From: Acidimicrobiales bacterium
GTDB taxonomy: Bacteria; Actinomycetota; Acidimicrobiia; Acidimicrobiales; MedAcidi-G1
Direction of reading: 5' to 3'
Length of the DNA: 64,000 bases
Assembly (NCBI GenBank): GCA_014239855.1
Contig: JAAZXY010000002.1
Coordinates: 62,001-126,000, forward strand
How positions within the stretch are numbered: the first letter of the stretch is position 1; each line of letters begins with the position of its first letter. The notes beneath the pieces are model-generated. The model did not search any database, was not told the origin of the DNA, and worked only from the letters and a program-made list of their open reading frames with translations. The position numbers were made by a program, and so were the translations under genes. Of the stretch, positions 5,049 to 58,636 are shown in pieces.

Positions 5049-8000
5049 TCAGCGTTTCTTCTTGGCCGGACCCTTCATCCGCCGTTCGGCGAGGAGCTCC
5101 GATGCCCGCTCGTCGGTGAGTTCCTCGACGGCGTCCCCCCGCTTCAGCGAGGCGTTGAACTCGCCGTCGGTCACGTAGGGACCCCAGTTGCCGTCCTTGA
5201 GGAACATCGTCTTCCCGCTCTCCGGATCGGCGCCCAGTTCGCGCAGCGGCGGCTTCGGGGCGTTGCGGCCCCGACGCTTGGGCTGGGCCAGGAGCGCCAG
5301 GCACTCGTCGAGCGTGATGGTGAGGAGCTGCTCCTCAGTCTCGATGTTCCGGCTGTCCGAGCCCCTCCTGAGGTAGGCGCCGTGGGGACCATTGTGCACG
5401 GTGACCTCGACCCCGTCGGCCGGGTCGACGCCCACCGACCGGGGCAGGCTCAACAACTCGAGGGCCTCCTCGAAGGTGATGCGATCCAAGGTCATGGTCT
5501 GGAACAGCGAAGCCGTCTTCGGCTTCGGGATGTCGCCGGCCCCGGCCTGACGGTCCAGTTCATCGAGGAGCGACTCGAGGTCGTCGAACCCGTCCACGGC
5601 ATCGGCCAACTTCTCCAGGTTGGCCAGGCGAGCCTCGCCACCGTCGTCGGCGGCCCGGATCTCGTCGCCGTAGCCCGAGGATTCGATGGCCGCCTCGATC
5701 ACGACCCTCGGCCCCTCCGAACGGACGCCGGACAACTCCTCCCCCAGGGAAAGGAAGGCCTCGATGCCGGCCGCCGCCTTGGCCGAAACCCCGAGGGCCT
5801 CGGTGTCCCGCAGCACGTCGAGCACCGGGCACCCCGCCTCGGTCGCCTCGACGACCTTCTTGACGGCCGCCGCGCTGACCCCGCGTGCCGGCACGTTCAG
5901 CACCTTCCTCGCCGAGGCCGCGTCGAGTCGACCAGCCGCCAGGCGCAGGTAGCCGAGGGCCACGTTGATCTCCTTGCGGTTGCCCGGCAGGGCCATGAGA
6001 CGGCCGGCGGGCGATGACGGCGCCGGACGTTCGGGCGGACGGCCCAGCGACACGTAGGGACCAAATCGTCCCGATCGGGCCACCACCACGAGCCCCGTGT
6101 CGGGGTCGGTGCCCAGTTCCCGGTCGGCCGGGGCGTTCAGGAACTCGAGCGCCCGGGCCACCGTCAGCTCGTCGGGCGGCACGTCGTCGGGGATCGACGC
6201 CGTCTCGTCACCCACCTGGACGTACGGGCCGAACTTGCCGAAGCGGGCCACCACCGGCTCACCGTCCGACGTCGCCCCGAGTTCGACCGTGCTGACCCCC
6301 CGGGGGTCGATGTCGCCGAGGCGGGTGGTGACCTTGGCGTGCAGGCCGATGTCGGCGTCGGACCCGAAGTAGAAGGCGTGCAACCACGGGACGCTCTCCG
6401 CCTCACCGTTGGCGATGTCGTCGAGGTCGTCCTCCATGCCCGCCGTGAAGTCGTAGTCGACCAGGCGGGGGAAGTGCCGTTCCAACAGGTTGGTGACCGC
6501 GAAGGCACTCAACGTCGGCACCAACGCCGCGCCCTTCTTGAACACGTACTTCCGTTGGATGGTCTCCATGATGGAGGCGTAGGTGGAGGGTCGGCCCACC
6601 CCGTGTTCCTCCATGCCCTTGACGAGCGATGCCTCGGTGTAGCGGGCGGGGGGCTGGGTGGTGTGGCCCTCGGCGGTCGCCGACACCACGTCGACGGCCT
6701 CATCGACGGTCACCGCCGGGAGCACCAGCTCCGCAGCATCGTCGTCGTCACCCTTGCTGTCGGCACCCCGTCGAGGCGACTCGTCACGGGTCTCCTCGTA
6801 GGCCCGACGGAACCCCTGGTGGTGGATGACGGTGCCGCTGGCCGCCAGCGTGGCCCGGGACCCGACCCCTCCGGCATCGGTGCCCGACGCCAGGTCGGCC
6901 CCCATGCGGAGGCGGACCGTCTCGCCGGTGGCGTCGGTCATCTGGGAGGCCACCGTGCGGCGCCACACCATCTCGTAGACATCGGCCTCGGACTTCGGGA
7001 GTTCGCCACGGACCGTGTCGGGATGACGGAAGCGATCGCCGGCCGGCCGGATGGCCTCGTGGGCCTCCTGAGCGTTGCGGACCTTGTTGGCGTAGGTCCG
7101 GGGCGCATCGGGGACGTGATCGCCGCCGAAGCGTTCGGTGGCTTCGGCCCGGGCGGCCCGCACCGCGGTGTCCGACAACGTGGTGCTGTCGGTCCGCATG
7201 TAGGTGATGTACCCCTTCTGGTACAGGCCCTGGGCGGCGTGCATGGCCCGCGATGCGGAGAGCTTCAGACGCCGGCCGGCCTCCTGCTGGAAGGTCGAGG
7301 TGGTGAACGGTGCCGATGGTCGACGCCGGTACGGCTTGGGTTCGACGGACTCCACGGTGGCGGGACGACCCTCCAGGTCGTCGCGCACCGCACCGGCCGA
7401 CGCCTCGTCCAGGACCAGGACGTCGTCGCGCGACAGGTTGCCGTCATCGCCGAAGTCCCGCCCGAGGGCCACCCGGCGACCGTCCACCTCCACGAGGCGC
7501 GCCGTGAAGCCGGCCCCCGCACCCTCCCGAGCGCGGGTCGCCATGGCACACGTCAGGTCCCAGTAGCCCGCCGGATTGAAGGCCATCCGGTCGCGCTCGC
7601 GCTCCACGATCATGCGGGTGGCCACGCTCTGCACCCGGCCCGCCGACAGCCCGGCACCGATCATCCGCCACAGCACCGGCGAGAGCTCGTAGCCGTAGAG
7701 ACGGTCGAGGATCCGACGGGTCTCCTGGGCATCGACCAGACGGCGGTCCAGCTCGCGGGTGTTCTCCAACGCCTCGGTGATGGCGCCCTTGGTGATCTCG
7801 TGGAAGACCATCCGGTGGACCGGGACCTTGGGGTTCAGGACCTCCAGCAGGTGCCAGGCAATGGCCTCGCCCTCACGATCCTCATCCGTGGCCAGGTACA
7901 GGACGTCGGCCTTCTTCAACAGGCGCTTCAGATGCGTCATCTGCTGCTTCTTGTCGGCGTTCACGACGTACAACGGCTTGAAGTCGTTGTCGACGTCGAC

Positions 8001-8171
8001 GCCCGTCTTGGCCCACGGCTCGCCCTTGTAGGCGGCCGGCACGTCCGAGGCCCGCATCGGGAGGTCGCGGACGTGGCCGATGGACGACTCCACGACGAAG
8101 CCGTCTCCGAGGTAGCCGGCAATGGTCTTGGCCTTGGCCGGGGACTCGACGATGACCAGTGCGTTAGTCAT
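5049..8171 (-). CDS. topA: DNA topoisomerase I with a UvrD-like inserted domain
   Basis: Encodes 1040 residues, longer than usual actinobacterial TopA (about 930). It relaxes negative supercoils by single-strand passage. The Toprim domain starts MTNALVIVESPAKAKTIAGYLG and contains LATDEDREGEAIAWHL (DxDxE). The catalytic tyrosine is in GYITYMRTDST. C-terminal repeat modules have G-P-Y cores near residues 646-651 (KFGPYV), 702-707 (RFGPYV), 928-934 (PHGAYL) and 995-1000 (NWGPYV). The protein ends in a basic PAKKKR tail. Between the second and third modules, residues 715-882 are an insertion described separately. The reading frame is continuous across it. The start ATG overlaps the nhaA stop by 8 nt. 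Confidence 0.96.
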   Translation of the reverse strand: MTNALVIVESPAKAKTIAGYLGDGFVVESSIGHVRDLPMRASDVPAAYKGEPWAKTGVDVDNDFKPLYVVNADKKQQMTHLKRLLKKADVLYLATDEDREGEAIAWHLLEVLNPKVPVHRMVFHEITKGAITEALENTRELDRRLVDAQETRRILDRLYGYELSPVLWRMIGAGLSAGRVQSVATRMIVERERDRMAFNPAGYWDLTCAMATRAREGAGAGFTARLVEVDGRRVALGRDFGDDGNLSRDDVLVLDEASAGAVRDDLEGRPATVESVEPKPYRRRPSAPFTTSTFQQEAGRRLKLSASRAMHAAQGLYQKGYITYMRTDSTTLSDTAVRAARAEATERFGGDHVPDAPRTYANKVRNAQEAHEAIRPAGDRFRHPDTVRGELPKSEADVYEMVWRRTVASQMTDATGETVRLRMGADLASGTDAGGVGSRATLAASGTVIHHQGFRRAYEETRDESPRRGADSKGDDDDAAELVLPAVTVDEAVDVVSATAEGHTTQPPARYTEASLVKGMEEHGVGRPSTYASIMETIQRKYVFKKGAALVPTLSAFAVTNLLERHFPRLVDYDFTAGMEDDLDDIANGEAESVPWLHAFYFGSDADIGLHAKVTTRLGDIDPRGVSTVELGATSDGEPVVARFGKFGPYVQVGDETASIPDDVPPDELTVARALEFLNAPADRELGTDPDTGLVVVARSGRFGPYVSLGRPPERPAPSSPAGRLMALPGNRKEINVALGYLRLAAGRLDAASARKVLNVPARGVSAAAVKKVVEATEAGCPVLDVLRDTEALGVSAKAAAGIEAFLSLGEELSGVRSEGPRVVIEAAIESSGYGDEIRAADDGGEARLANLEKLADAVDGFDDLESLLDELDRQAGAGDIPKPKTASLFQTMTLDRITFEEALELLSLPRSVGVDPADGVEVTVHNGPHGAYLRRGSDSRNIETEEQLLTITLDECLALLAQPKRRGRNAPKPPLRELGADPESGKTMFLKDGNWGPYVTDGEFNASLKRGDAVEELTDERASELLAERRMKGPAKKKR
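5547..5978 (-). other. UvrD/PcrA 2B-subdomain-like insertion inside TopA
   Basis: TopA residues 732-875. The segment starts NRKEINVALGYLRLA, continues with RKVLNVPARGVS and LGVSAKAAAGIEAFLSL, then VIEAAIESSGY and RLANLEKLADAV, and ends FDDLESLLDEL. Each block has its counterpart, in the same order and spacing, in subdomain 2B of UvrD/PcrA/Rep helicases (E-I-x-D-A-L-A-Y-L-R; R-x-I-N-V-P-x-R-G-I-G; S-A-K-A-x-x-x-I-x-x-F; L-E-x-x-G-Y; R-x-E-N-L-x-E-L; L-x-x-F-L-E-x-V). No helicase ATPase motifs are present here. Flanks are normal topoisomerase: RFGPYVSLG before and KPKTASLFQTMTLD after. Identification is by motif reading and is an inference, but a strong one. Confidence 0.8.
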
Positions 8172-9504
8172 GGAATACGACGTCCTCGTCAGTGGATCGG
8201 GCCCCCAGCAGGATGACCACGCCGATCAGGGCAGCGACCATCGAGGCCACGAGGATGCCCACCTTGGCCTCGTCCTGTATCGCCAGATCGTCGAAGGCCA
8301 GGCCGGTCACGAACAGCGAGACGGTGAAGCCGATCCCGGCAATGGCCGAGATGCCGACCATGTGCCGGACCGTCGCCCCCGACGGCAGCGCCGAGATGCC
8401 GAGGCGCACCGCACCGAGGGTGAACAGGCTGACGCCCACCACCTTGCCGACCACCAGGCCGAGGGCCACGCCGATGGTCACCCCTGACCCCATCGCGTCG
8501 CGCAGCGAGTCCCCGCTGATCTCGATCCCGGCGTTGGCCAGCGCGAAGACGGGGATGATCAGGAAACCGGTGATGGGATGAAGGCGTTGTTCCAGCCGGG
8601 CCGCCACCGAGATCGACTCGTTCATCCGGAATCTGGCCGCCCGGAGACCATCGGCGTCCAGGGTCCCCACACCGACCGGCGCCTCGTCGTCCGGCCCGAT
8701 GAGGGCGGCTGCGGGAGCCATCAGACCCATGATGACGCCGGCGATGGTGGCGTGCACCCCGGAGCGGAACATGGCGTACCAGAGCACCGACCCCAACACG
8801 ATGTACAACGGCGTGTACCAGACCCTGAGCCGGATCAGGATGACCACGGCCACCGTGGTGATGGCGGCCAGCACCAGCCATTCGGTGGCCAGGTCGCTCG
8901 TGTAGAAGATGGCGATCACGATGATCGCCCCGATGTCGTCGACGATGGCCAGTGACAGCAGGAAGACCTTCAGGGGCGTCGAGATCCGGTTGCCCAGAAG
9001 GGACAGCACCCCGACGGCGAAGGCGATGTCGGTGGCCATGGGGATCCCCCACCCGGCCGAAGCGTCGCCCGAGGTGTTGAAGGCGAAGTAGATGGCTGCC
9101 GGGACGACCATGCCCCCCAGCGCCCCGGCGGCCGGGAGCAGGGCGGCCCGTCGGTCCCGCAGGTGACCGGCCACCCACTCACGCTTGATCTCGAGGCCCA
9201 CCACGAAGAAGAAGATGGCCATCAGGGCGTCGTTCACCAGTTGGGCCAGCGTCAGCGGGTGCCCGTGGTGTTCGAGTCGCAGATCGCCGATGCCCAGGTG
9301 GAACTCGGTGTGCCAGAGCTCGTGGTAGCTCCCCGACCAGGGGGAGTTGGCCCAGACGAGGGCCGCCACGGTGGCCACCATGAGCAGGATGCCGCCGGCC
9401 GCCTCGATACCCAGGAAGCGCATGACGGGTCGGCCGATGGTGCGCGCCAGAGGACGGTCACTGCCCAACCAGGTGGGTCTCGATGCAGGTTGTGGACCGG
9501 ACAT
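8164..9504 (-). CDS. nhaA: Na+/H+ antiporter NhaA
   Basis: Encodes 446 residues from ATG 9504. It exchanges external protons for internal sodium at the inner membrane. Visible features are FLGIEAAGGILLMVATVAALVWANSPW (TM1), NDALMAIFFFVVGLEIKRE (TM2), IPMATDIAFAVGVLSLLG and SLAIVDDIGAIIVIA, whose paired Asp residues form the ion-binding centre of NhaA. About eleven membrane segments are seen. Earlier in-frame starts at 9609 and 9603 exist but add an unlikely hydrophilic leader; GGAA lies before 9504. The stop overlaps the topA start by 8 nt. It is the first gene of the nhaA-to-holB series. Confidence 0.93.
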   Translation of the reverse strand: MSGPQPASRPTWLGSDRPLARTIGRPVMRFLGIEAAGGILLMVATVAALVWANSPWSGSYHELWHTEFHLGIGDLRLEHHGHPLTLAQLVNDALMAIFFFVVGLEIKREWVAGHLRDRRAALLPAAGALGGMVVPAAIYFAFNTSGDASAGWGIPMATDIAFAVGVLSLLGNRISTPLKVFLLSLAIVDDIGAIIVIAIFYTSDLATEWLVLAAITTVAVVILIRLRVWYTPLYIVLGSVLWYAMFRSGVHATIAGVIMGLMAPAAALIGPDDEAPVGVGTLDADGLRAARFRMNESISVAARLEQRLHPITGFLIIPVFALANAGIEISGDSLRDAMGSGVTIGVALGLVVGKVVGVSLFTLGAVRLGISALPSGATVRHMVGISAIAGIGFTVSLFVTGLAFDDLAIQDEAKVGILVASMVAALIGVVILLGARSTDEDVVFHD

Positions 9505-9687
9505 CGTCGCTTCCAGCACTCCCTCGGGGTTCGTCTCCGGCCGGATCCCGTTGATCCCGCCAGCCGCTGCGTCGCCCGAACGGTAACCGTCACCCTGTGA
9601 CATCACCATGGATGCCGACCCGCCGATGTCGGCTCAGAGCCGGTTTTTCATGGGCGCGACGGCGATTTCGCGGATCTGACCCGCCAA

Positions 9688-54444: not shown

Positions 54445-55956
54445 TCAGCGGACGTTGGTGGGTGGTGAGATCGCCATCCAGTAGCCGTCCTCGTGGTTCC
54501 ATTCGGCCAGGCTCAGGGTGTCACGGGCGTCCGCCTTGTCCGGGCCCAGCGAGGCATAGGGAATCCCTGACATCGAGAACGTGCCCAGCGACTCGGCAGC
54601 CGCCCGGAAGGAGTCGTTGGTGAGATCCGGTCCGGCCGCCGTGGCGATGTGGCGGAACAGTTCAAAGGACTTGCAGGAGTTCTGGAGACCCGCCCAGTAG
54701 TTGGTCTCGCCCTCCGACAGCAGGTCGGGAGACAACACCTCGTGGCCCAGCCCCTCTTCGACGAGGGCCACACAGTCGGCCATGTTCTCGTCACCGCGGG
54801 ACTCGAAGGACTTATTGGTCAGGAGGGGGCCCGACTGGTCGATCCCGTCGGGAGGGGACCCCGACCACCGGTTGGCCGAGTCGCCGTTCAGGATCAGGAC
54901 CGTGAACTCGTCGCCCAGTCTGAACAGGTACTGGAGCGCGTAGGCCGCCTCGCCCACCGTGAAGATGGTGGACACGCCCTCGGTCCGGGCCTTCTCGAGG
55001 AGTACCTCGAGATGGGCAATGGTGGCCGCCTCGTCGCCCGTGGCCTCGTTGTAGACGCTGATCGGGACCTCGATCCCTGCGGAGACCAGCGCCGCCTCGG
55101 TGTCGGCCATGATCGGTTCGTACTCGGCGTTGGCCCCGTAGACCATGACCGGACCGAGTCCGTCGAGCCGGCCGGTCTCACGCAGCAGGTTGACGAAGGC
55201 CCGGCCCCGACGACCCAGGCTGATGTCATAGGAAATCCAGGGCGCCGTGGACTGGGCCAGCTGTTCGGGCGTGGGCTTTCCGCCGATCAGGATGGTGTCG
55301 TAGGTGCCCGGAAAACAGGTGTTGACGTTCTCGGCTCCCGGCCCGGCGAATCCGTTGAGCACCACGAACACCTGGTGGTCCTCGGCCAGCTCCACGCAGG
55401 CCGACTCGGCGGTCACCGGTCCGACGGGCAGGAAGTGGACGTGGACGAGGTCGACCATCCGCCCCAGGATCCCCCCGGTGGCGTTGACGTGGTCGACGTA
55501 CACCTGGACGACGTCGTCGTAGTTGGCGTACGTGAGGTTGAAGCCGTAGGTCTCGTTGAACTTCTCGAAGTCGATCGAGACGAAGCCGACCTTGATCGTC
55601 TCGGCGGTGACCCCGCGGAACGAGTCGGTCAGCACGATCGGAGGTTCAGTGGTTGTCGGGGGTGCCGTGGTGGTGGTCTCGGCCGGCGCCGGATCGTCCT
55701 CGGCTGGCTCAGCCGTCGTGGGAGGCGGCTCGGTGGTCGGCGGCGCAGTGGTGGGCGCGGCCAACGGGGCGTCGGGCGCCTCGGTGGTGGTCGGCGCAGT
55801 GGTGGGCGCGACCGTCGTGGTGGTCTCGGCCGGCGCCACCTCTTCCACGGTCGCGTCGGTCCCGCCACAGGCTGCTGCCGTGAGGGCCAGCACCAACAGC
55901 GCTGCGGACAGCGGCCCCGGAGCGAACCCCCTTCGGATCCTCGTCATCATCCCCAT
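54445..55956 (-). CDS. ABC transporter substrate-binding lipoprotein (branched-chain amino acid/amide type)
   Basis: Encodes 503 residues. Lipobox LTAAACGG near residue 30 follows a signal peptide. A long Thr/Pro/Ala linker with many TTT and APTTAPTT units spans about residues 40-108. The periplasmic-binding-protein I fold begins ETIKVGFVSIDFEKFNETYGFNLT and includes YVDHVNATGGILGRMVDLV and NGFAGPGAENVNTCFPGT, like the Leu/Ile/Val and urea/amide binding proteins. ATG 55956 has AAGGAGG 7 nt upstream. No permease or ATPase genes are adjacent, so it is an orphan. Confidence 0.88.
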   Translation of the reverse strand: MGMMTRIRRGFAPGPLSAALLVLALTAAACGGTDATVEEVAPAETTTTVAPTTAPTTTEAPDAPLAAPTTAPPTTEPPPTTAEPAEDDPAPAETTTTAPPTTTEPPIVLTDSFRGVTAETIKVGFVSIDFEKFNETYGFNLTYANYDDVVQVYVDHVNATGGILGRMVDLVHVHFLPVGPVTAESACVELAEDHQVFVVLNGFAGPGAENVNTCFPGTYDTILIGGKPTPEQLAQSTAPWISYDISLGRRGRAFVNLLRETGRLDGLGPVMVYGANAEYEPIMADTEAALVSAGIEVPISVYNEATGDEAATIAHLEVLLEKARTEGVSTIFTVGEAAYALQYLFRLGDEFTVLILNGDSANRWSGSPPDGIDQSGPLLTNKSFESRGDENMADCVALVEEGLGHEVLSPDLLSEGETNYWAGLQNSCKSFELFRHIATAAGPDLTNDSFRAAAESLGTFSMSGIPYASLGPDKADARDTLSLAEWNHEDGYWMAISPPTNVR

Positions 55957-56020
55957 GATCGGCCTCCTTCTTCGAACCCCGACGGTAGACGCGCCCCCGA
56001 ACGGCCGCATCACAGGCCGC

Positions 56021-56917
56021 TCAGAACAGGCCCCTCAGAACCCGGCCGGTGGCCTCGACGACCTGCCGGGCCGCACCGGCGGTTCCGGCCTCGGCCAGCA
56101 GGTCACGGTTGAACACCTCCGGACAGACCACCGGATCGGCCCCGATCCCGTGGAGCAGATCCAGCAGGTGGCCGTGGTCGACCACGCCGGCACCGGGCAG
56201 CGGCCGGGCCGCCATGCACTCGGACATCGGGTCGTCCCACGGTTCGGCGCCCGCGTCACACACCTGGAGCACCGGAACGGCCCAGCCCGGCATCGACGCC
56301 AGCGTCTCGGCGTGCCTCCCGTGGGGCCCACCCGGTTGGCGGTGCCAGTGCCACGAATCCAACAGCACGCCCACGTTGCGACGGCCGGTGGCCTGCAACA
56401 GCTCCCAACAGGTCGTGAGGTCGGGAATCCCCGTCCACGGGAGGAACTCCACCACCACGGTCACCCCGGACTCGCCCGCCCGGTCGGCCACCGCGGCGAG
56501 ATTGGCCACGGCGCGATCCATCGACCCGAGCTCGGGGCCGAGGCACACGGCAGCCAGGTTGGGCGCAGCGTGTGCTTCGGCGATGGCGATCGACGGCTCG
56601 GCATCGGCCACCGCCTCGGCCGGGGTGGCGGCGTCGACCCAGCCGTAGATGGCCTCCACGCATCCCACGGTCAGACCGGCATCAGCGAACCTGGATCGGA
56701 TGTCGTCGGCGGACATGCCTCCCGTCGGGCCTCCGCCGTTCAGGACCATCTCGTGCAGCGTCCACCACGAGAGGCCCACCGCTCCGACTCCGACGAGGGC
56801 GTCGACGCACTCCTCGAACGCGGCCCGGTCGATGCTGAACGGGTCGGCCAGCAGGGTGGACAGACAGGGCTGGAGGCCGCGGCCCCCGATCCGGTGTGGC
56901 GTGGTTCCGGAGGTCAT
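56021..56917 (-). CDS. Sugar phosphate isomerase/epimerase-like TIM-barrel protein
   Basis: Encodes 298 residues. LQPCLSTLLADPFSIDRAAFEECVDALVGVGAVGLSWWTLHEM, VVVEFLPWTGIPDLTTCWELLQATGRRNVGVLLDSWHWHRQPGG and LQVCDAG match the AP endonuclease family 2 (xylose isomerase-like) barrel, with Glu in VEF, Asp-x-W-H-W-H, and Cys-Asp as likely metal ligands. It overlaps the upstream TetR gene (ATGA). Substrate unknown; a role in the catabolic cluster is likely. Confidence 0.8.
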   Translation of the reverse strand: MTSGTTPHRIGGRGLQPCLSTLLADPFSIDRAAFEECVDALVGVGAVGLSWWTLHEMVLNGGGPTGGMSADDIRSRFADAGLTVGCVEAIYGWVDAATPAEAVADAEPSIAIAEAHAAPNLAAVCLGPELGSMDRAVANLAAVADRAGESGVTVVVEFLPWTGIPDLTTCWELLQATGRRNVGVLLDSWHWHRQPGGPHGRHAETLASMPGWAVPVLQVCDAGAEPWDDPMSECMAARPLPGAGVVDHGHLLDLLHGIGADPVVCPEVFNRDLLAEAGTAGAARQVVEATGRVLRGLF

Positions 56918-57510
56918 CGGTCCTTTTCCATTCGGTCCTGTTCCAGTCGGTCGAGTGGCAGCCGGTCGACGAGCGCGGCGACCACGTGGTCGACGGTGGT
57001 CGACGGGTCGGGAGACCGGGTGAGGCGTCCGTCCCGGACGAGGGCGGTGAAGCCCACGGTGAGGGCCAGTTGCAACCGGATCCAGTGCACCCGCTGGTCG
57101 TCGTCCAGACCCAGCGAGGCGAGCACCGTCTGGAGCGGTCGCCCGGCCCGCTCGACCGCCGTGATCAGGTCGGGGTCGTCACCCGGTGGATGCAGTGAGG
57201 CCTCGGATCGACCCGGGTACCGGAGGGCGTATGCCAGGTGGGCCCGGACAATGGCCTCCACCGCGTCACGACCCGACCGTCCGACGGCGGCCACCGTGAC
57301 CACCTCGGCCACCTCTCCGAGGGTCCGGAGGGCCAGAAGACGACGAAGGCCCTCCACCCCGTCCACATGGGCGTACAACGACTGGCTGCGGATGCCGAGG
57401 CGGCCGGCCACCGTCCCCGGTCGGACGGCGTCCACCCGCCCGACCTCGTCGAGAACGTGCAGGGCGGCCTCGGCCACCTGTTCGGAGGTCACCCCCCGTC
57501 GTGCTGCCAT
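56914..57510 (-). CDS. TetR family transcriptional regulator
   Basis: Encodes 198 residues. The N-terminal HTH reads TSEQVAEAALHVLDEVGRVDAVRPGTVAGRLGIRSQSLYAHVDGVEGLRRLLALRTLGEVAEVV, in which the recognition helix is IRSQSLYAHV. The C-terminal domain is helical. It is divergent from the UGSC-cluster gene at 57569, whose start region carries an inverted repeat (57563-57581) that is a good operator candidate. It is co-transcribed with the sugar-isomerase-like gene (ATGA overlap). Confidence 0.9.
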   Translation of the reverse strand: MAARRGVTSEQVAEAALHVLDEVGRVDAVRPGTVAGRLGIRSQSLYAHVDGVEGLRRLLALRTLGEVAEVVTVAAVGRSGRDAVEAIVRAHLAYALRYPGRSEASLHPPGDDPDLITAVERAGRPLQTVLASLGLDDDQRVHWIRLQLALTVGFTALVRDGRLTRSPDPSTTVDHVVAALVDRLPLDRLEQDRMEKDR

Positions 57511-57562
57511 GACCGTCGATTCAATCGGGCCTTGCGCTCTCAGTCAACACTCGACAGACTTG

Positions 57563-57581
57563 TGTCTAATGATTGTAGACA
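57563..57581. promoter_or_regulatory. Inverted repeat over the start codon of the UGSC-cluster gene
   Basis: TGTCTA (57563-57568) and TAGACA (57576-57581) flank 7 bp containing the ATG at 57569. A related ACAGAC...GTGTC motif lies just upstream (57554-57566). The position between the TetR gene and the cluster suggests a repressor site, which is inferred. Confidence 0.55.
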
Positions 57582-58636
57582 TACCAGCAGACGCCGACCT
57601 GGTGGCCGAGATGGCCGCCCACGGTTGGGGCGACGGCCTCCCGCTGGTGGCCCCCACCCCGGAGCGGGTCGAGGCCATGCTGGCCGGGAGCCCCCACGCC
57701 GACCCCGACGAGGTCATCGCCGTCCTGCCTCCCCGCTTCGGCGAGGCCACCCGACAGATCCTGGCCGTCAATGCCGTGATGGCCGGCTGTCTCCCGGTGC
57801 ACCTCCCCGTGCTGGAGGCCGCCGTCCGGGCCCTGGCCCGCCCCGAGCTGAACCTGCGAGGGGTGAACGCCACCACCCACTGCGTGGCTCCGCTGCTGGT
57901 CGTCCACGGCGAGGTGGCCCGCACCGGCGGCTACCACGGTGGCCTCGGTGCCTTCGGCCCCGGCAACCGGGCCAACGCCACGACCGGTCGGGCCCTCCGA
58001 CTGGTCCTGTTGCATGTGGCCGGCGCCACCATTGGTGACGGCGATGCCTCGACCCAGGGCGGGCCGGCCAAGTACGGCTACTGCGTGGCCGAGAACGCCG
58101 AGGCCTCCCCGTGGCCCGCCTACCCGACCACCGTCGGTGTGGACGCCCCCTCGGCGGTGACCGTGCACTGCGGTGAGGCGCCCCACAACGTCCACGACAT
58201 GGAGTCCGACGACCCGGCCCGGATCCTCGACAAGGTCGCTTCGGCCATGGCCACCACGGCCCAGAACAACGCCTGCATCAGTCAGGGCGAGTACCTGGTG
58301 GCCCTGTGCCCCGAGCACGCCGCCACCTGCGCCGAGGCCGGTTGGTCGCGCCGCGACGTGGCGTCGTACCTCTTCCAGAAGGCCCGCCTTCCGGCTGCCG
58401 AGCTGAAGCGGGCCTTCGCCCTGCGGGCCTGGGAACCGTGGATGGAACGGCTAGGCGACGACGATCCGGCGCCCATGACCGCCCACCCGGACAACATCCG
58501 GATCCTCGTGGTGGGCGGTGCCGGAAAGCACAGCTCGGTGATCCCCAGCTGGGGGATGACCCGCAGCGTCACGGTGCCCGTGACCCTGTCCGTGAATCCT
58601 GAGGACGAGCCCAAGGGGGGCGAACCCGCATGTTGA
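57569..58636 (+). CDS. Cysteine-rich protein co-encoded with UGSC selenoprotein
   Basis: Encodes 355 residues and overlaps the UGSC gene by 7 nt. Readable motifs are MAAHGWGDGLPLVAPTPERVEAMLAGSP near the start, AGCLPVHLPVLEAAVRAL, ATTHCVAPLLVVHGEVARTGGYHGGLGAFGPGNRANATTGRALRLVLLHVAGA, GPAKYGYCVAENAEASPW, VTVHCGEAPHNVHD and RILVVGGAGKHSSVIPSWG. Conserved-looking Cys and His residues suggest a metal or thiol centre. I do not recognise a named family; it probably forms a complex with, or acts on the same substrate as, the selenoprotein. The overlap and shared promoter support this. No signal peptide. Confidence 0.8.
   Translation: MIVDIPADADLVAEMAAHGWGDGLPLVAPTPERVEAMLAGSPHADPDEVIAVLPPRFGEATRQILAVNAVMAGCLPVHLPVLEAAVRALARPELNLRGVNATTHCVAPLLVVHGEVARTGGYHGGLGAFGPGNRANATTGRALRLVLLHVAGATIGDGDASTQGGPAKYGYCVAENAEASPWPAYPTTVGVDAPSAVTVHCGEAPHNVHDMESDDPARILDKVASAMATTAQNNACISQGEYLVALCPEHAATCAEAGWSRRDVASYLFQKARLPAAELKRAFALRAWEPWMERLGDDDPAPMTAHPDNIRILVVGGAGKHSSVIPSWGMTRSVTVPVTLSVNPEDEPKGGEPAC

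Follow-up and report, generated by a model that had tools for sequence, protein, structure and literature searches.

The DNA analysed here is a 64,000-nucleotide window from contig JAAZXY010000002.1 of an Acidimicrobiales bacterium (assembly GCA_014239855.1, lineage MedAcidi-G1). In this window, a minus-strand open reading frame (ORF) that runs unbroken from its ATG, as had been claimed in an original prediction made from the sequence alone, encodes a chimeric DNA topoisomerase I (TopA) of 1,040 residues in which one of the C-terminal repeats is interrupted by a long insert. The protein scores 734.9 bits against TIGR01051 (cut-off 456.4), which places it in the bacterial type IA topoisomerase I family, and it gives the only TopA match in its own metagenome-assembled genome (MAG), which is 83% complete. 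Residues T323, Y324, R326, T327, and D328 are invariant in our TopA alignment (A1), and Y324, which lies in the motif YMRTDS, is presumably the active-site tyrosine. The topoisomerase repeat profile PF13368 matches five stretches of the protein, and these are found on either side of the insert, as was predicted. The repeat label D5 used below was set by the order of the repeats and by alignment to Mycobacterium smegmatis TopA. The features of the gene are the following.

5049–8171, minus strand: topA, chimeric DNA topoisomerase I, 1,040 residues (TIGR01051), sole TopA found in its own genome
7794–8159, minus strand: Toprim domain, residues 5–126 (PF01751, E 4.7e-21)
6393–7751, minus strand: type IA topoisomerase core, residues 141–593 (PF01131, E 3.1e-106)
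6132–6290, minus strand: C-terminal repeat 1 (D5), residues ~628–680 (PF13368; strands in the full-length model)
6042–6071, minus strand: D6 β2–β3 signature GRFGPYVSLG, residues 701–710, directly before the insert (sequence; model strand 704–709)
5526–6029, minus strand: insert, residues 715–882 (missing from 17 aligned insert-less TopAs)
5544–5981, minus strand: part homologous to PcrA/UvrD 2B, residues 731–876 (TIGR01073, phmmer, Foldseek)
5874–5882, minus strand: position of the GIG (duplex-binding) motif, residues 764–766, reading G-V-S here (alignment of 38 inserts and 46 PcrA)
5502–5528, minus strand: resumption of D6, PKPKTASLF, residues 882–890 (alignment; model strand 885–888)
5286–5441, minus strand: C-terminal repeat 3 (D7), residues ~911–962 (PF13368; model strands)
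5073–5243, minus strand: C-terminal repeat 4 (D8), residues ~977–1033 (PF13368, best stretch 982–1037; model)
5052–5063, minus strand: C-terminal tail, just KKKR, without lysine repeats (tail comparison)

A helicase 2B subdomain in repeat D6

The central finding of this study, confirmed by profile searches and by structure comparison, is that the insert is nearly the whole 2B subdomain of the UvrD/PcrA/Rep helicases. All five sequence blocks on which the original prediction rested are present in the translation, in the order given there, and the helicase identity it proposed for them is borne out by confident matches. When the whole protein is searched, residues 731–876 match positions 381–533 of TIGR01073, the NCBIfam model for PcrA, at E 3.5e-16, and TIGR01075, the model for UvrD, is matched at E 4.2e-11. 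Pairwise comparison tells the same story, with phmmer retrieving Bacillus stearothermophilus PcrA (2pjr) at E 4.1e-12, and with the PcrA of the same genome being 40% identical to the insert (E 1.9e-25). This is a property of the group and not of one protein, since each of the 36 inserts in our alignment A2 matches both TIGR01073 and TIGR01075 at E≤0.01, and a profile of these 36 inserts finds residues 388–527 of 2pjr at 1.6e-29. The Pfam model UvrD_C, which 34 of the 36 inserts match at E≤0.1, speaks less clearly: it scores below its gathering cut-off of 25.6 bits, with 14.7 bits for the whole protein and 18.8 for the insert alone, and in the window's protein the match spans just positions 109–167 of a 350-position model. 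Two loci containing runs of N (L077 and L104) were omitted from A1 and A2 and retained in the trees with N treated as gaps. The RecA-like motor domains with Walker motifs that define a superfamily 1 helicase are absent from the protein, in which helicase models match solely within residues 731–876.

The fold agrees with the sequence. An AlphaFold2 model of the insert, computed from an alignment of TopA rows only, without any helicase row, is all helical with a mean predicted local distance difference test score (pLDDT) of 91.8. When this model is compared to the PDB using Foldseek, UvrD/PcrA/Rep/AddAB structures occupy ranks 1–24 (best E 1.0e-4, 11 at E≤0.001), with template modelling scores on the query of 0.58–0.69 and root-mean-square deviations of 2.5–9.4. 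In the model of the full-length protein (pLDDT 85.7), helices spanning residues 721–878 are held between two β-strands, 704–709 and 885–888.

These two strands define the insertion site, which is the β3–β4 loop of C-terminal repeat D6. There are only 6–12 residues in the insert columns of 17 aligned insert-less TopAs, and the boundaries 715–882 are consistent both with that alignment and with M. smegmatis TopA (6pcm), in which residues 742–759 are flanked by the equivalents of residues 715 and 881 of our protein. In M. smegmatis, this loop has been described as a disordered, positively charged insertion of ~20 residues (PMC7192597; PMC10969213) that "could contribute" to DNA affinity (PMC7192597). 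The possibility that the region is an ordinary topoisomerase repeat or a known TopA extension is rejected by the 6–12 residues found there in insert-less TopAs; furthermore, a term search of the main text of a survey of TopA C-terminal motifs (PMC9369019) returned none of UvrD, helicase, or Acidimicrob.

Conservation, C-terminal tails, and possible functions

The insert is under purifying selection. We compared 15 close pairs, several of which share a sequence, and the ratio of nonsynonymous to synonymous substitution rates (dN/dS) was 0.074–0.316 in the insert, with a median of 0.141 (14 pairs). The medians were 0.085 for the core (13 pairs) and 0.053 for the flanking repeats (14 pairs), estimates being missing for one pair in the insert, two in the core, and one in the flanking repeats. 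Three residues, A738, P761, and G764, are invariant in all 38 inserts. While A738 lies outside the putative duplex-binding loop, P761 and G764 are part of it and are also invariant in 46 PcrA sequences, and R763, which lies between them, is kept in 36 of the 38 inserts. (A divergent helicase, L156, was left out of these PcrA counts and of the backbone tree described below, but is included in the 2B tree, which has 47 PcrA rows.) The G-x-G of the loop is found in 31 inserts, versus all 46 PcrA, and is followed by Lys or Arg in 30 of the 38 inserts and in no PcrA, where this residue is Asp or Glu in 39 of 46. The predicted duplex-binding loop is therefore among the best-kept parts of the insert and is retained in most members. 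In Deinococcus radiodurans UvrD (drUvrD), the GIG loop binds duplex DNA, and a G424T substitution at the first Gly weakens DNA binding 3–4 fold while G426T, at the second, has no significant effect (PMC3797037); the role of the motif in Escherichia coli UvrD has also been treated (PMC5973834).

A second feature sets the chimeric proteins apart, which is their C-terminal end, where they are without the lysine-rich tail carried by most insert-less TopAs of the order. None of 37 insert-bearing TopAs has more than 10 basic residues (K+R) after the last repeat, while 45 of 52 insert-less TopAs do, these counts omitting one protein of each kind (L088 of 38 and L027 of 53) whose locus ends before the stop codon. 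Small genome size alone does not explain the short tails because more than 10 basic residues are kept in 16 of the 19 insert-less genomes that are no larger than 2.4 Mb. The contrast is also seen within a single family of the order, f59, where one genome of genus g142 and one of g151 have 0 basic tail residues versus 22–24 in four genomes of the insert-less genus g64. Our own protein, ending in KKKR, has no long lysine-rich tail of the kind found in lysine-repeat actinobacterial TopAs. When Streptomyces TopA lacks the lysine repeats, it falls off DNA more easily and its processivity is greatly reduced (PMC7398561).

We propose that the insert is a transplanted duplex-DNA clamp that has replaced the lysine-rich tail, a reading to which we assign a probability of a little under 0.6. 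The 2B subdomain of a PcrA-type helicase would have been copied once into the D6 β3–β4 loop of topA, where its helix-loop-helix (PxRG[VI]G) would grip duplex DNA next to the single-stranded DNA bound to the C-terminal repeats. Such a grip would keep the enzyme on DNA over many rounds of strand passage, and the insert would thereby assume the role of the tail that insert-bearing TopAs are missing. We infer DNA binding, a position beside the T-strand, an effect on processivity, and the replacement of the tail. Between the two functions suggested in the original prediction, our analysis leans towards regulation of the topoisomerase's DNA contact rather than coupling to a partner.

Several observations weigh against a clamp. 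The insert is changing more rapidly than the repeats on either side of it (median dN/dS 0.141 versus 0.053). In the clade of the window's own protein (5 of 38 rows), the loop reads RGVSA and has neither the second Gly nor the new Lys, and two further inserts read GIA. The mean net charge of the inserted domain is negative (−4.8), even if less so than that of the PcrA domain (−10.0). Finally, 7 of 52 insert-less TopAs also have at most 10 basic tail residues, and the correlation between insert and tail, which comes from related rows and for which a Mann–Whitney p-value is thus no proper test, amounts to about two evolutionary transitions.

A less probable alternative, but one that has to be taken seriously, is that the insert is a docking module that pairs with the 2B subdomain of PcrA/UvrD, or with a 2B-binding protein, and brings the topoisomerase to sites of helicase action. 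There are precedents for this, since the Mycobacterium tuberculosis UvrD1 dimer is joined by 2B–2B contacts and MutL binds UvrD 2B (PMC13238157), and potential partners are present, as a helicase 2B match, weak in G044, is likewise found in 39 of the 41 host-family genomes that have an insert-bearing TopA. That the best-kept residues include helicase DNA contacts argues against docking, although this argument is tempered by the fact that the same loop adjoins the 2B–2B interface in the M. tuberculosis dimer (PMC13238157). The divergence of the insert from the 2B of its own PcrA, to 40% identity, also speaks against it.

Slightly less probable still is that a solvent-exposed loop simply accommodated a compact domain with close ends, which contributes little or nothing by itself. 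The faster evolution of the insert than of its flanking repeats would fit this scenario, as would the 7 of 38 inserts in which the GIG motif has decayed. However, dN/dS is well below 1 in 14 of 14 estimable pairs (some sharing a sequence), and all 23 host-family genomes with a completeness of 90% or more and a contamination of 5% or less carry the insert, none of the TopAs seen in the 48 genomes of the family being without it. The short tails that accompany the insert, and the presence of the chimeric gene in other families whose PcrA follows taxonomy, also speak against this scenario. We consider doubtful a more elaborate version of the clamp, in which the insert, besides gripping duplex, would pair with PcrA via 2B–2B contacts. 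This would create a linked topoisomerase–helicase machine without fusion to a motor, spread horizontally through ocean Acidimicrobiia after 2B was copied from pcrA and the lysine-tail clamp was replaced.

Distribution and origin of the insert

The insert is a lineage trait: of 48 host-family (f1) genomes, 41 have it, and it is also present in parts of two other families of the order. The remaining 7 host-family genomes, which are 69–85% complete, show no TopA match at all. One insert-bearing TopA (G049:C18:8384-9559) has an in-frame TAA in its matched part, which is either a sequencing error or decay, and one MAG with 7% contamination (G008) has two different insert-bearing TopAs (L084 and L083), the second of which groups with that of f59 g108. 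Across the order, in a set of 397 genomes overlapping with that of the host family, a junction profile finds 39 genomes at E≤2.3e-30, and the next-best matches are helicase-type at E≥2.5e-13. These 39 correspond to 17 of 17 sampled f1 genomes, 14 of 15 genomes of genus g32 in family f27, and 8 genomes of f59 (genera g108, g142, g151, g253, and g268). Among the matches listed, seven f59 g64 genomes, f27 g127 and g282, and other families show a weak helicase-type match or none, while G576 (f27 g32, 76% complete) and G610 (f59 g108, 93% complete) show a helicase-type match only, even though their genera are insert-bearing.

Samples of the class (296 genomes) and phylum (396 genomes, the share lying outside the class not being given) revealed no insert outside the order: the 5 matching genomes in the class are all f1, and the only one in the phylum is the window's own. 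Up to 14 candidates were scored per genome in the order and phylum searches, and up to 19 in the class search. In the 0.6–1.1 Mb genomes of genus g169 in f65, a family of the same class, where up to 7 candidates were scored per genome, there is one weak TopA C-terminus/2B match or none among the matches listed, and the C-terminal end of TopA may be very different or absent. One scan with one peptide pattern found no viral carriers. Beyond the phylum, the analysis covered one scan of genome contigs with a single peptide pattern, in which named contigs yielded 53 loci, including MedAcidi-G1, MedAcidi-G3, MED-G01, and AG-410-I20, and the isolate names suggest that the insert-bearing group is seemingly marine. 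Among these loci, L225 is interrupted by N and by a stop codon, and L226 matches only upstream of the insert; the latter (L226:1973-4516) encodes a TopA nearest to f59 g64 that has no insert and combines GRFGPYVSLG with a long lysine-repeat tail.

In a tree of 2B sequences, the 38 inserts make up one side of a branch that separates them from 47 PcrA rows, with a support of 100 in the Shimodaira–Hasegawa-like approximate likelihood ratio test (SH-aLRT). Because all 38 form one clade versus PcrA, there was a single origin of the insert, followed by spread. In a backbone tree of full-length PcrA, for which, as for its approximately unbiased (AU) tests, 15 of the 38 inserts were used, these 15 form a clade with 27 f1 PcrA rows (SH-aLRT 98). 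The donor is most likely a PcrA-type helicase of the host lineage itself, although the AU test leaves the exact branch equal, placement of the inserts within f1 PcrA, on its stem, or with other PcrA rows being indistinguishable (p-AU 0.52–0.53).

How the insert spread is suggested by the topoisomerase cores (residues 1–600). The cores of f27 g32 and f59 g108 nest among those of f1, and holding f27 together is rejected in the core tree (p-AU 2.6e-10), as is holding f59 together (4.8e-5), while the PcrA tree keeps f27 rows together (98) and f59 g64 and g108 rows together (99). This discordance points to transfer of the chimeric topA between families. By contrast, the cores of f59 g142 and g151 group with those of insert-less f59 g64 (SH-aLRT 99 and 100 in two trees), and uniting all insert-bearing cores in a single clade is rejected (p-AU 5.4e-5), so either the insert or the C-terminal part may have moved by recombination, or an older gain may have been lost many times. 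The AU test on the C-terminal repeats allows either grouping (p-AU 0.746 and 0.469) and decides neither for nor against an exchange of the C-terminal segment in f59. The AU p-values are optimistic because the groups were partly picked after the trees had been seen, and the trees should be read with care in view of long branches and unusual composition, in f27 among others. A side observation concerns L100 (G050) and L101 (G051), between which dN is 0.26 in the core and 0.03–0.04 in the insert and repeats, as if the G050 core had been partly replaced or frame-shifted.

The grouping of g142/g151 cores with g64 and the rejection of a single core clade would also be expected if 2B had been inserted independently in different families, but this is very improbable. 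All inserts form one clade versus PcrA, they have in common a TopA-specific linker ahead of 2B (SSPEGRLMALP-like), and grouping the f59 insert with f59 PcrA, as an independent insertion in f59 predicts, is rejected (p-AU 0.00135). An assembly artefact or chimeric contig can be dismissed as next to impossible because, although the named records are nearly all MAGs or single-cell assemblies, the insertion recurs at an identical site across many separate assemblies, in 41 of the 48 genomes from the family and 39 of the 397 from the order.

The surroundings of the gene are as follows. Pfam matches of the neighbouring products give the order nhaA-topA-MFS-tmk-holB, where MFS stands for a major facilitator superfamily protein. 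The first 8 bases of topA lie within the nhaA gene (Na+/H+ antiporter, 8164–9609, minus strand). Of the 53 named loci, 32 have nhaA upstream of topA and some others are cut short; in L192 and L216 (f59) it is missing from that position. Two very long plus-strand ORFs, 6339–8216 (antisense to topA) and 55556–58636, may be expected because the DNA is 70% GC.

Comparison with known systems

The enzyme family is known, and the architecture is new. In line with the statement in the original prediction that no description was known, the open-licence PMC literature contains, by title or abstract and among the matches listed, no report of a 2B subdomain in TopA, and a term search of PMC10969213 gave no occurrence of UvrD in the text covered. 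The chimera is significant for several reasons. First, it shows clearly that a domain which is already an insertion in one enzyme, as 2B is within the 2A subdomain of helicases, has been used again in nature as an insert in an unrelated enzyme. Second, it separates 2B from its motor, which offers a direct test of the debate over the role of 2B, as an anchor on duplex DNA or as an element for autoinhibition and protein docking. Third, it links this debate to the question of how topoisomerase I gains processivity.

Comparison with four known systems highlights important similarities and differences. Topoisomerase I of M. smegmatis and M. tuberculosis (Topo_C_Rpt type, D1–D8) has the same core, the same type of C-terminal repeats, and the same insertion site, but here a folded 2B domain of ~165 residues takes the place of a short basic loop, and there is no long basic tail. 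In the lysine-repeat TopAs of Streptomyces and other actinobacteria, an accessory C-terminal element holds DNA and raises processivity (PMC7398561), which is what we propose for the insert, although here lysine repeats are missing and a helicase-derived domain is present instead. With the 2B subdomain of PcrA/UvrD/Rep (TIGR01073, TIGR01075; PDB 2pjr, 2is1, 3lfu, 4c2u, 9dci), the insert shares sequence over most of the subdomain, the fold, and, in most members, the GIG helix-loop-helix. The differences are that the insert has no motor domains, sits inside a topoisomerase, has lost many positions conserved in helicases, and in 30 of 38 cases has exchanged the Asp/Glu after GIG for Lys/Arg. Lastly, in reverse gyrase and RecQ-Topo III complexes, helicase parts work with a type IA topoisomerase via an ATP-driven motor, whereas here it is only the non-motor regulatory subdomain of a helicase that has joined such an enzyme.

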